DNA from: Sulfurovum sp. AR
GTDB lineage: Bacteria > Campylobacterota > Campylobacteria > Campylobacterales > Sulfurovaceae
DNA: 64,000 bases
Assembly: GCF_000296775.1 (NCBI RefSeq)
Contig: NZ_AJLE01000001.1
Span: 124,001-188,000 of the forward strand
Direction of reading: 5' to 3'
The number at the start of each line of letters is the position of its first letter. Within the stretch, counting starts at the first letter, position 1. The notes under the pieces are model-generated. The model was not told the origin of the DNA and searched no databases. It saw only the letters and a list, made by a program, of their open reading frames with translations. The translations under genes and the position numbers were made by a program. This document shows positions 23,498-28,706 of the stretch, piece by piece.

Positions 23498-24115
23498 TTA
23501 CAAGCCTTTCATCACAATTTCAAAGAGATAATCCACTTCATGGTCTTCTAAAAATACCGTCTTTTTGGTTTTAAAAAAGTCTAGTACTTTTTTGGTAGGA
23601 AGTGCAGCAGTATAAAGGCATGCAGGGTGTGCAGGGATGAACGACTGCATGAGCGCTATCTCCTCTTCTATACGGTTTTCGCAGATGTAGCAGTGCTCAT
23701 CATGATGCAATCTGCCTTCATATTCGAGTAGCGTGATATACGACTCACAGACAATGCGTTTAGGGTTTTGTTTATCCCATTTTTGGGCTGCAGAGAGAAG
23801 CAGATCAAAGTAAAAAGAGTCTATCTCTTCTGTATCTTTGAGATGCGGTTCAAAGCGTTTGATAAAGTTGTGCCAGAGCAGAAGTCTGTTTTTGTCAAAG
23901 AGCCAAGGAAATCCCATATGAGAGAGTGAACGCAGTCTGGGAAGAAAGCTGCCTCCTTCACCTTCTACTTCAAAATCTATCAGGTTACCTAGTTGTAAAA
24001 TGGAGTGTCGTGCGCCAAAAAAACGGTAATAGGTTCTTACTTCTGTGGGACTCAGTACCAGTGCTATCGTGTCTTCATTTTTAGCTTTTCTGACAGAAAG
24101 TATAAAACCTTTGAT
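23498..24115 (-). CDS. recO: RecO, recombination mediator protein (non-canonical ATC start)
   Basis: A 205-residue protein in the epsilonproteobacterial RecO style. The N-terminal OB-fold reads KGFILSVRKAKNEDTIALVL and then VRTYYRFFGARHSILQLG; the C-terminal half carries CYICENRI and ends DYLFEIVMKGL. RecO loads RecA on SSB-coated DNA with RecR. From the stop upstream to the in-frame TAG at 24137-24139 there is no ATG, GTG or TTG until codon 67 (23917), which would remove the whole OB-fold. AAAGGA (24122-24127) sits six bases before ATC at 24113-24115, exactly where homologues begin (M-x-GFIL). I therefore place the start at ATC; ATT two codons upstream is the alternative. Confidence 0.8.
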   Translation of the reverse strand: MKGFILSVRKAKNEDTIALVLSPTEVRTYYRFFGARHSILQLGNLIDFEVEGEGGSFLPRLRSLSHMGFPWLFDKNRLLLWHNFIKRFEPHLKDTEEIDSFYFDLLLSAAQKWDKQNPKRIVCESYITLLEYEGRLHHDEHCYICENRIEEEIALMQSFIPAHPACLYTAALPTKKVLDFFKTKKTVFLEDHEVDYLFEIVMKGL

Positions 24116-24130
24116 GGTAATTCCTTTAAT

Positions 24131-24153
24131 TTTTGCCTAAATTATAGGCAAAA
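24131..24153. promoter_or_regulatory. Perfect palindrome over the recO promoter
   Basis: TTTTGCCTA, five bases, TAGGCAAAA: a perfect nine-base inverted repeat. On the minus strand the recO -10 box TATAAT (24141-24146) lies at its centre, so a dimeric repressor bound here would block recO transcription. Its core GCCTA-N5-TAGGC recurs at 46280-46294. Confidence 0.5.
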
Positions 24154-24254
24154 GCAAGTTAAAATATCCAAATATCGCCCTCTTGAGGGTAGAGTTGGTA
24201 AACTAAGCTTAACAACCTTTTAGCTATAATCCCTCCAATTACGAGGAGCGCTAT

Positions 24255-24290: not shown

Positions 24291-27200
24291 ATGCAAGATT
24301 TATTTACTTCTTTTAAGGACAACTGTGGGTTTGGGCTCTTAGCCTCTATCGATAACACACCTTCACACAAAAATTTGGAAGATGCGATTACATCTCTTTC
24401 ACGTATGATGCACAGAGGAGCGGTAGCTGCGGATGGTAAAACAGGAGATGGTGCAGGTCTGCTTCTCTCTATGCCAAAATCATTCTTTGCAAAAGAAGCA
24501 ACAGCCAATGGTGTACACCTTCCAGAGAATTATGCAGTTGCAATGGTATTCTCAAACAATCCAACTGATTTTGATGTGATCCATAAGATCTGTGATAACA
24601 ATGACCTGAAGATCATTTACACACGTACGGTACCGGTTGATACAAATGCACTCGGTAAGCAGGCACTTGCTTCACTTCCAACCATGAAGCAAGTATTTGT
24701 TGCACCGAATTCACCTGTAGCGATCAACCGTTTTGAGGCACTAGTGTATCTTTCCCGTAAAGAGATCGAAGCAGCACTGATAGACGATAAAACATTCTAT
24801 ATCCCTTCATTCTCAACCTCTGTGATCTCTTATAAAGGGCTTGTCATGCCTACCCATATCAAAGAGTTTTACAAAGACCTTGCCGATGAAGATTTTGAGA
24901 TCTCTTTCTGTCTTTTCCATCAACGTTTCTCTACCAATACCCTTCCTCAATGGAAACTTGCACAGCCGTTCAGAATGATCGCCCATAATGGTGAGATCAA
25001 CTCTGTAACTGCGAACAGATTTAACGTGAAAGCGAAAATGGCAGCAGCAAAATCTGTCATCTATACAGATGAAGAGATGGATAGACTCAGAAATGTGATT
25101 CAAGACGATATGTCAGATTCAGCGAGTTTAGATAACTTTATGGAGTTCCTACGTGTGAATGGTGTCGATTTCTTTAAAGCAGCACGTTCACTTATACCGG
25201 CACCTTGGCATAATAATCCACAGATGGATACTGAACTCAGAGCATTCTATGAGTATGCGAGTGCAACATTTGAACCGTGGGATGGTCCAGCTGCTGTGAG
25301 TATGACAGATGGTCGTTACATCGGTTGTGTACTTGACAGAAACGGATTGAGACCTTCAAAATACATTAGAACAAAAGACAACAGGCTACTTATCTCTTCT
25401 GAGTATGGTGTACTTAAGTTGCCTGATGAAGAGATCGTTGAGCGTGGTAGACTTCAATCCGGTGAGATGATGGGGATTGATCTTAAGCACGGGAAGGTGC
25501 TTAAAAACAGTGATATCAATGATTATCTCAAAGCAGGTAATGCCTATGATAAGTGGTTGACCGCAAACCTCTCTTATTTACAGGAACATGTACCTGAAAC
25601 TGATGTAAGTACTTCTGAAGTGAACTATGGAGATATGAATGCTAAACAGCGTTATTTTAATTTTACATCTGAGGTGATCAGAGAAGTGATCAGACCTATG
25701 ATCAACGAGGGGAAAGAGACAACAGGTGCTATGGGTGATGATACACCGCTTGCGGCATTCTCAACAGAGCAACGTAACTTTACTGACTTTTTCAAACAGA
25801 AGTTCGCTCAGGTCACCAATCCACCGATCGACCCGATCCGTGAGAAAACAGTGATGAGCCTTAACACAGGTTTTGGAGAGAGCCACAATGTTTTAAGTGA
25901 TAGTCCGGAACATGCAAAGCGTCTGAAAACGGTACTTCCACTCATGTCTGCAGAGAAGTTCTGTTTGCTTCAAGAGTTTGGTACAAAAGGGAATGAGAAG
26001 TATGATCCAAGCTATAAATGTGAGAAATATGATACAACCTATAAGGGTGATCTCAAAGAGAGTCTTTATGCACTGACTGAGCGTATCATCGAAGATGTAA
26101 GAAGAAATGACGTTAGAACCATTATCTTAGATGACAGAAATCTCAATGCAGAGAATAAAGTGATTCCTATGCTGATGGTTGTGGGACGCTTGAACCAAGA
26201 GCTTCTCAAAGCGAAAATCAGACATTTGACCAGCATAGTGGCAGTGACAGGTGAAGTATTTGATCCACACTCTGCAGCATGTCTTCTTAGCTTTGGTGCT
26301 GCAGCTATCTTCCCTTACTTACTCTACCATACAGTGGAAGAGTTGGAAGAGGGGAATGAAGCAATCAAACCACTTTTAAAGCAATTTAGAAGATCAATGG
26401 GTGCGGGATTGATGAAGATCATGTCCAAGATGGGTATCTCTACACTTGCATCATACAGAAACTCGAGACTCTTTGATGTGATCGGTTTAAGTACAGAGAT
26501 CGTTGATGATTGTTTCTCTGGTGCCAAAGGATTACTCCCGGGACTTGGATATGAAGATATCGATGCACGTCTGAATTCAAACCATGAACGTGCCTTTACG
26601 GATGCATTTGATGGTAAAAGAAATGCACTTTACAAGGGTGGTTTCTACAAGTATAAAAAAGGTGAAGAGTTCCATGACTTCTCACGTCCGACCATCTCTG
26701 CTATGCAAAAAGCTTCAGAGAGCGGAAAAGCTGAAGATTATGAAGAGGTAAAGAAGCTTGTCAATGGCCGTGACAAAAAGTTCATACGTGACTTCTATGA
26801 ACTCAAAAGTGATAGAGAACCAATCAGTATCGATGAAGTCGAGCCGCTTAGTGAGATCTTTAAACGTTTCTCTACAGCGGCGATGTCTATGGGGTCTATC
26901 TCCCAGGAAGCGCATGAGACACTTGCAGTAGCGATGAACAGAATTGGCGCGAAGTCAAACTCTGGTGAAGGTGGAGAGTCTCCATTACGTTACGGTACAG
27001 AGAAGAACTCGAGTATCAAGCAGGTTGCATCAGGACGTTTCGGTGTCACACCGGAGTATTTGAGATCTGCGACAGAACTTCAGATCAAAGTAGCACAAGG
27101 GGCAAAACCTGGTGAAGGTGGACAGCTTCCAGGAAGTAAAGTATCTCCGTTGATCGCGGAACTTAGATTTACGAAGCCGGGAGTGACACTGATCTCACCA

Positions 27201-28706
27201 CCGCCACACCATGATATTTACTCTATTGAGGATTTGGCACAGCTTATCTTTGACTTGAAGCAGGTGAACCCGCATGCAAGGGTTGCAGTGAAACTTGTAT
27301 CGACTGCGGGTGTAGGTACGATCGCAGCAGGTGTTGCTAAATCTTATGCAGATAAGATCATTATTTCAGGAGCAGATGGTGGTACAGGTGCTGCACCGAT
27401 CGGTTCTATAAGATTTGCAGGTAACTCTTGGGAACTAGGTCTTATCGAAGCACATAATGCATTGAAAGCAAACCATTTAAGAGGTCAGGTAACCGTTGAG
27501 ACCGATGGTGGACTTAAAACAGGTCTGGATATCGTTAAAGCGGCTATTATGGGTGCAGAGGAGTATGCATTTGGTACAGGTGCACTTGTACTTGTAGGTT
27601 GTATTATGCTTCGTGTATGTCACTTGAATACCTGTGGTGTGGGTGTTGCAACACAAGATGAACACTTGAGAAAAAGATTCACAGGAAATGTGGAAAAAGT
27701 CGTCAATTACTTTACCTTGGTAGCAACGGAAGTAAGAGAGATCCTTGCTGAACTTGGATATAGATCACTCGAAGAGATCATCGGTAAGAACGAATTGTTT
27801 AAAGTGATAGATGATGAGTTTGCCAAGAAGTTCAATTTTGAAGAACTGCTTTATGATATCGAGGGTGATAACACTTGCCAGGTACCGTTCAACGAACCAT
27901 ATGATCAAAATGAGTATGAAAAAGAGATACTTGAAGAGTTGATAGAAACGATCAAGGATCCAAGACAAAAGATCGTACTGAACAAAGAGATCTCAAACCT
28001 CAATAGAAGTTTTGCGACACGTATTTCAGGAGAAATTGCTGCACTTCACGGAAATGCAGGTCTACCGGATGGTACGATCACATTGAATGTGAAAGGTACA
28101 ACAGGACAATCACTTGGTGCATTCCTGGCACAAGGTATTAACATCAATGTACATGGTGCAGGGAATGACTATATCGGTAAAGGTATGAGCGGTGGTCAGA
28201 TCGTGATCTCTTCTGATAATGCGGGTCATGAGTTTGCGCTTGGTGGGAACACCTGTCTGTATGGTGCAACAGGCGGAAAACTCTACATTCACGGTAAAGT
28301 AGGTGAGCGTTTCTGTGTCCGTAACTCCGGAGCAACAACGGTGGTTGAAGGTACGGGAGACCATCCATGTGAATATATGACCGGTGGGGTTGCCGTGATC
28401 CTTGGTGAGACCGGTGTGAACTTTGGTGCAGGTATGACGGGTGGTAAGGCATTTGTCTATGACATGGAAGGTAAATTCTATGAGAAAGTAAACCCTGAGC
28501 TTGTTGAACCACTACGTATCGATACGGATGAGTGGGATACAGAGATGTTTGAACTTAAAGCACTTCTGAAAGACTATGTCGCAAAAACAGGATCTAAGAG
28601 AGCAGCCTATATCTTGAATAACTTCAGAAGTGAAATACGCAAGTTCTGGATGGTAGCGCCACGTGGTATAAAACCTACGATCGTTACGGGTGCAAAAGGC
28701 GAATAA
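24291..28706 (+). CDS. gltB: Glutamate synthase large subunit (GOGAT)
   Basis: A 1471-residue glutamate synthase alpha subunit. The N-terminal glutaminase domain should begin at Cys12 (DNCGFGLLA) after removal of an 11-residue propeptide, and shows CLFHQRFSTNTLPQW and AHNGEINSV. The central and FMN-binding domains contain SMGSISQEAHETLAVAMNR, the GEGGQLPGSKVSP loop, the SGADGGTGAAPIGS phosphate-binding segment and the cysteine cluster CIMLRVCHLNTCGVGVATQ that binds a 3Fe-4S cluster. The C-terminal GXGXG helix domain includes GAGNDYIGKGMSGGQIVI. It makes glutamate from glutamine and 2-oxoglutarate. The small subunit gene gltD, often adjacent, is not in the window. Confidence 0.96.
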   Translation: MQDLFTSFKDNCGFGLLASIDNTPSHKNLEDAITSLSRMMHRGAVAADGKTGDGAGLLLSMPKSFFAKEATANGVHLPENYAVAMVFSNNPTDFDVIHKICDNNDLKIIYTRTVPVDTNALGKQALASLPTMKQVFVAPNSPVAINRFEALVYLSRKEIEAALIDDKTFYIPSFSTSVISYKGLVMPTHIKEFYKDLADEDFEISFCLFHQRFSTNTLPQWKLAQPFRMIAHNGEINSVTANRFNVKAKMAAAKSVIYTDEEMDRLRNVIQDDMSDSASLDNFMEFLRVNGVDFFKAARSLIPAPWHNNPQMDTELRAFYEYASATFEPWDGPAAVSMTDGRYIGCVLDRNGLRPSKYIRTKDNRLLISSEYGVLKLPDEEIVERGRLQSGEMMGIDLKHGKVLKNSDINDYLKAGNAYDKWLTANLSYLQEHVPETDVSTSEVNYGDMNAKQRYFNFTSEVIREVIRPMINEGKETTGAMGDDTPLAAFSTEQRNFTDFFKQKFAQVTNPPIDPIREKTVMSLNTGFGESHNVLSDSPEHAKRLKTVLPLMSAEKFCLLQEFGTKGNEKYDPSYKCEKYDTTYKGDLKESLYALTERIIEDVRRNDVRTIILDDRNLNAENKVIPMLMVVGRLNQELLKAKIRHLTSIVAVTGEVFDPHSAACLLSFGAAAIFPYLLYHTVEELEEGNEAIKPLLKQFRRSMGAGLMKIMSKMGISTLASYRNSRLFDVIGLSTEIVDDCFSGAKGLLPGLGYEDIDARLNSNHERAFTDAFDGKRNALYKGGFYKYKKGEEFHDFSRPTISAMQKASESGKAEDYEEVKKLVNGRDKKFIRDFYELKSDREPISIDEVEPLSEIFKRFSTAAMSMGSISQEAHETLAVAMNRIGAKSNSGEGGESPLRYGTEKNSSIKQVASGRFGVTPEYLRSATELQIKVAQGAKPGEGGQLPGSKVSPLIAELRFTKPGVTLISPPPHHDIYSIEDLAQLIFDLKQVNPHARVAVKLVSTAGVGTIAAGVAKSYADKIIISGADGGTGAAPIGSIRFAGNSWELGLIEAHNALKANHLRGQVTVETDGGLKTGLDIVKAAIMGAEEYAFGTGALVLVGCIMLRVCHLNTCGVGVATQDEHLRKRFTGNVEKVVNYFTLVATEVREILAELGYRSLEEIIGKNELFKVIDDEFAKKFNFEELLYDIEGDNTCQVPFNEPYDQNEYEKEILEELIETIKDPRQKIVLNKEISNLNRSFATRISGEIAALHGNAGLPDGTITLNVKGTTGQSLGAFLAQGININVHGAGNDYIGKGMSGGQIVISSDNAGHEFALGGNTCLYGATGGKLYIHGKVGERFCVRNSGATTVVEGTGDHPCEYMTGGVAVILGETGVNFGAGMTGGKAFVYDMEGKFYEKVNPELVEPLRIDTDEWDTEMFELKALLKDYVAKTGSKRAAYILNNFRSEIRKFWMVAPRGIKPTIVTGAKGE

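Follow-up and report, generated by a model that had tools for sequence, protein, structure and literature searches.

The recO gene of Sulfurovum and related genera probably starts at a conserved AUC-type codon

In a 64,000-nucleotide stretch of the genome of Sulfurovum sp. AR (contig NZ_AJLE01000001.1, positions 124,001 to 188,000; hereafter the window), the reading frame of the DNA-repair gene recO raises the question of where its translation begins. On the minus strand the frame is preceded by a TAG at 24139-24137 and stays open from 24136 to the stop codon at 23498, and its first ATG, GTG or TTG (here called canonical) is the ATG at 23917-23915. An earlier note on this DNA had proposed that recO instead starts at an ATC preceded by a Shine-Dalgarno sequence and, some 25 bases ahead, a TATAAT, and that a model starting at the ATG would lose the OB-fold; both upstream elements and the long frame without any earlier canonical start are found where the note had placed them (Table 1).

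Table 1. Features of the recO region, with positions in the window
Feature	Position	Strand	Support
recO, 205 codons from ATC plus stop	23498..24115	-	NF010483 8.6e-84; PF13114; 7ymo chain A
ATC, putative start codon of recO	24113..24115	-	kept in relatives; sharp onset of conservation
139-codon ORF from first ATG (truncated recO model)	23498..23917	-	no PF13114 match
Shine-Dalgarno AAAGGA, six bases before ATC	24122..24127	-	Shine-Dalgarno core in 66/72 non-canonical rows
TATAAT, putative recO -10 box, 25 bases before ATC	24141..24146	-	exact TATAAT in relatives
Motif common to relatives	24209..24230	-	18/22 matches in window
Divergent large ORF, called gltB here	24291..28706	+	ORF listing

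With respect to domain content, the NCBIfam model NF010483 covers positions 2-204 of its 204 on the window protein, which makes this a RecO of the Campylobacterota type; it gives the long frame 280 bits and the short ORF 188, the latter still above the cut-off of 137. The Pfam family PF13114 (RecO_N_2) matches the long frame only (83.7 bits with a cut-off of 27; 7e-24; residues 9-78), and both profiles begin to match at their position 2, which corresponds to the codon directly after the ATC. Also the solved RecO structure of C. jejuni (7ymo chain A) aligns with window codons 2-205 (E 1.5e-56). As the PF13114 match is confined to the long frame, a start at 23917 would cost RecO its N-terminal domain, in agreement with the note. 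According to PMC9456098, a positive patch on this domain may help C. jejuni RecO to bind single-stranded DNA, and PMC2475510, which makes no mention of Sulfurovum or of a start codon, describes an OB-fold in D. radiodurans RecO and in a model of the H. pylori protein.

Comparison with related species points to the ATC itself. Searches for recO matched 70 of 78 genomes of the genus and 151 of 175 genomes of the family, and the homologous start codon could be read in 156 of the 159 loci fetched (a recO fragment without N-terminus in G065 was left out, and L068, L110 and L117 were dropped because the start is not covered), from which removal of 39 duplicates left 117 non-identical rows. These carry ATC (60), ATT (7), ATA (4), CTG (1), ATG (41) or GTG (4); the Sulfurovaceae account for 113 of them, 72 non-canonical and 41 canonical, while the remaining four canonical rows are Hydrogenimonas-like or from Helicobacter. 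Counted by genome, the start is non-canonical in 57 of the 67 members of the genus with a readable recO start (ATC 49, ATT 5, ATA 3, the other 10 having ATG), and in ten other Sulfurovaceae genera, where 40 genomes were read of 81 with a recO match, AUC, AUU or AUA was found in 13 (ATC 10, ATT 2, ATA 1) and CTG in one more, next to ATG in 24 and GTG in two. By contrast, non-canonical codons are absent from all 50 recO loci of 17 other Campylobacterales families (ATG 42, GTG 4, TTG 4), so that the window gene, for all its likeness to C. jejuni RecO, differs from its homologues outside the family in this respect. Since it is frequent inside and absent outside, the non-canonical start can be regarded as a trait of the Sulfurovaceae, and its retention across many species of the Sulfurovum family argues that it is real. 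The start proposed in the note is thus supported by the family models, by the C. jejuni structure and by dozens of related species, while the sequencing or assembly error at 24113-24115 that it had also considered, for which a one-base homopolymer difference (perhaps an error) in an acnB-like gene of the same assembly might be cited, is ruled out to within a negligible probability by the codons of near relatives, including G001, G002, G004 and G036, four members of the genus whose genomes are single contigs (ATC, ATT, ATC and ATC, respectively).

In a nearer clade of 49 rows, the first two bases of the start codon are invariant and the third is C in 43, T in four and A in two, and the columns upstream mostly show an identity of about 0.25-0.5, the exceptions being the GG of the Shine-Dalgarno sequence at -9/-8 (0.69 and 0.88) as well as some columns rich in A. 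Downstream of the start, codons 2-66 of the window differ from those of L003 (genome G036) by 11 synonymous and no non-synonymous codon differences, from L004 by 17 and none, and from L005 by 16 and two. Judged by these ratios, purifying selection acts strongly on codons 2-66, and this constraint speaks against the view that only a short RecO from ATG 23917 is made, or that recO is decaying, even though the short ORF exists and scores as a RecO. Moreover, amongst the relatives the first canonical codon inside recO lies at offsets varying from 4 to 77, so that they have no conserved internal start, and truncation or decay is accordingly considered extremely improbable.

A start farther upstream, at the ATT at 24121-24119 or, in some relatives, at a more distant codon, would add a short N-terminal extension to RecO. 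The window frame is indeed open for seven codons ahead of the ATC, but none of these is a canonical start and they are not conserved, and the ATT directly abuts the AAAGGA with zero spacing. Likewise, 10 of the 72 non-canonical rows have a canonical in-frame start farther upstream that could serve there, as against 62 in which none occurs between the upstream stop and the recO start codon, so that in these rows, as in the window, a canonical start cannot explain the N-terminus; in 15 of the 72 an in-frame stop even lies only 2-5 codons upstream. On the stop positions and the unconserved upstream codons this explanation was rejected as well, its probability being small.

If translation starts at the AUC in the cell, the question arises as to which tRNA reads it. 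A search of the genome with one anticodon-arm pattern, which a strongly diverged initiator would escape, returned two GGGCTCATAACCC initiator-type arms, both with the anticodon CAU (three further sites are palindromic and match both strands), and none whose anticodon would pair with AUC. As this one pattern showed only CAU arms, a variant initiator that would recode the start of recO was set aside. Because both arms carry CAU, the AUC would be read by the ordinary initiator tRNA with a mismatch at the third base, and fMet would be the first residue of RecO. The infC gene of E. coli is similar to recO in having an AUH start (AUC, AUU or AUA) with a third-base mismatch to the initiator tRNA, but it starts at AUU, encodes the initiation factor IF3 and is autoregulated. 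In Campylobacterales the aligned infC start is TTG in 30 of 30 loci (L165-L194), and since infC does not start at AUU here, an E. coli-style IF3 loop was discarded.

The sequences upstream of recO differ between the two classes of start codon. A Shine-Dalgarno core is found within 17 bases of the start in 66 of 72 non-canonical as compared to 21 of 39 canonical Sulfurovaceae rows, and in 13 of the 50 recO loci from other families. Of 71 non-canonical rows, 57 have an exact TATAAT 14-54 nt upstream, but of 41 canonical rows only 4 do, with shuffled sequences leading one to expect about 5 and 2.5, respectively. Over independent tree pairs, however, both associations are below significance (for the promoter, about 3.7 of 6 pairs go the same way and 0.1 the opposite way, p of about 0.125). 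The divergent ORF, by resemblance a putative gene for the glutamate synthase large subunit, has a counterpart upstream of recO in 61 of the 72 non-canonical rows and in 30 of the 41 canonical ones, the median intergenic distance being 179 in the former and 98.5 in the latter. The motif shared with relatives is located 93 nt before the ATC in the window and about 90-105 nt before the start in many AUC-type rows, while it sits 4-6 nt before the ATG in relatives of the compact type; its ATTATA, read as TATAAT on the plus strand, is perhaps part of the gltB promoter. We read these data as indicating two layouts, one combining a strong promoter and a good Shine-Dalgarno sequence with a weak start, and the other a compact region with an AUG. 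The -10 region of recO in the window (24131-24153) also forms a perfect inverted repeat, TTTTGCCTA, TAATT, TAGGCAAAA, which is imperfect or absent in L003 and in more distant relatives.

As the weak start accompanies a strong -10 box and Shine-Dalgarno sequence, and as the AUG relatives mostly lack the TATAAT and lie nearer to gltB, the AUC probably serves to offset strong transcription. The consensus-like promoter would give recO a short mRNA leader, and initiation at the AUC would be aided by the Shine-Dalgarno sequence six bases upstream; the third-base mismatch with the CAU anticodon would render the start weak, presumably through discrimination by IF3 if the analogy with the Streptomyces gene sigR holds, and would counterbalance transcription such that few RecO molecules are made per mRNA and their steady level is low. 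The AUC start, in other words, probably keeps RecO scarce. In theory, low translation per mRNA lowers noise, and a low-noise supply of RecO may be the advantage conferred. The link to IF3 that the note had suggested is plausible. Taken as a whole, initiation at AUC by the ordinary initiator tRNA, offsetting a strong promoter to give a low and steady level of RecO, is in our opinion a well-favoured account of this locus.

A further hypothesis, which we put forward tentatively and hold to be somewhat doubtful, assumes that the AUC is a regulatory switch repressed by IF3, so that lower IF3 activity or lower initiation fidelity would raise RecO. It would fit in with this that AUH codons depart from AUG at the third base only and that the codon class is kept, with all 72 non-canonical rows having ATC, ATT or ATA except for one CTG, whereas the TTG start of infC and the ATG regained or retained at recO in some relatives do not favour it. 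An experimental precedent is sigR: PMC5472188 describes that IF3 holds its GTC start down and that output rises once a canonical codon takes its place. According to the same source, sigR resembles recO in that a non-canonical start is kept across a genus together with a good Shine-Dalgarno sequence, but it codes for a sigma factor and its GTC start is confined to Streptomyces, while the AUC of recO spans several genera.

The history of the AUC-type start was followed on a tree that joins 165 RecO proteins and that was built by a quick method, with many open forks (L077 and L080 were omitted as short). At least 12 changes between canonical and non-canonical starts are required, compared to 44 or more with shuffled labels, a count that does not separate gain from loss. 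ATC is the codon of L158, the row that branches deepest in the Sulfurovaceae, and some relatives in the family either kept ATG or went back to it. The third base of the AUH starts changed at least 10 times, as compared to 18 and 20 changes in the two other isoleucine columns conserved in all 71 rows, yet the smaller isoleucine columns 5, 149 and 167 (52-56 rows) show only 4, 10 and 7 changes. Internal isoleucine codons of the recO genes are ATC, ATT and ATA at frequencies of 0.355, 0.267 and 0.379. It is therefore likely that the recO start favours AUC above AUU and AUA, but only modestly.

To what extent recO stands alone was addressed by scanning 464 kb (22%) of the genome with a dicodon model for coding signal ahead of the first canonical codon, an approach that is blind to genes with an ATG, GTG or TTG early inside them. 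Amongst 421 coding-like ORFs recO ranked first with 22.6 nats, by far the strongest signal; the dicodon model and a lower cut-off had been adopted after a single-codon scan (327 coding-like ORFs, no candidates) had missed recO itself. Also in a comparison of the window with G036 over 172 ORFs, recO came first with 26.7, the next ORF reaching 6.3. As a control, 400 kb of G188, a genome from another family, were scanned and gave 410 coding-like ORFs; the top five upstream signals (9.0-12.4) belonged to weak ORFs (total 12.5-16.9), and the best signal amongst strong ORFs (7.8) stands before a seemingly normal ATG gene. The runner-up of the dicodon scan, L245:2960-3391, has no Pfam or NCBIfam match and may be a shadow frame. 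In 160 kb scanned of G004, L333:3972-4622 showed a strong signal of 15.6 nats over 45 codons ahead of its first canonical codon; this ORF could be a broken gene or could likewise have a non-canonical start.

The third-ranked ORF (G000 C11 215234-215641; L252:5234-5641) lies outside the window and has no Pfam or NCBIfam match; by resemblance it is putatively globin-like. It contains an ATA at 215261-215263 after an AAAGGA, and in 30 related loci the same column holds ATA (6), CTG (5), ATG (1), TTG (2) or GTG (3), the remaining 13 starting at another column, so that by hand count ATA or CTG is present in 11 of 30; in L267 the ATA follows an in-frame stop at a distance of two codons. This ORF, too, appears to have a non-canonical start, which would mean that at least one other gene in the genus shares this property, and it suggests a wider set of such genes, possibly with a relaxed start-codon check in Sulfurovaceae. 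That the family uses AUH and CUG starts in several genes, recO being the clearest example, combining a strong promoter, a Shine-Dalgarno sequence and a near-cognate start for low-noise, IF3-sensitive expression, we consider speculative and rather unlikely. Just outside the window, an acnB-like gene (L251:196-2822; G000 C11 190196-192822) falls into two frames because one of its A runs has six bases and that of G036 seven; this difference of a single homopolymer base is either an assembly error or real.

To our knowledge, bacterial genes in which evolution has preserved a non-canonical start are few, and infC, one of the well-studied cases, is tied to IF3. The same applies to sigR (PMC5472188). 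A literature search, with most subscription journals outside it, returned no paper on the recO start of Sulfurovum or on an AUC-started recO, and PMC11497404 makes no mention of AUC or AUU. By the comparisons presented here, recO joins the known conserved non-canonical start codons, and does so with unusual breadth. For the annotation of Sulfurovaceae genomes this implies that start prediction limited to ATG, GTG and TTG would remove the N-terminal domain of RecO. An AUC in a DNA-repair gene over several genera, together with AUG-started relatives whose promoter region differs, further provides a set of natural experiments, and through the association with the promoter it becomes testable why a weak recO start is kept.
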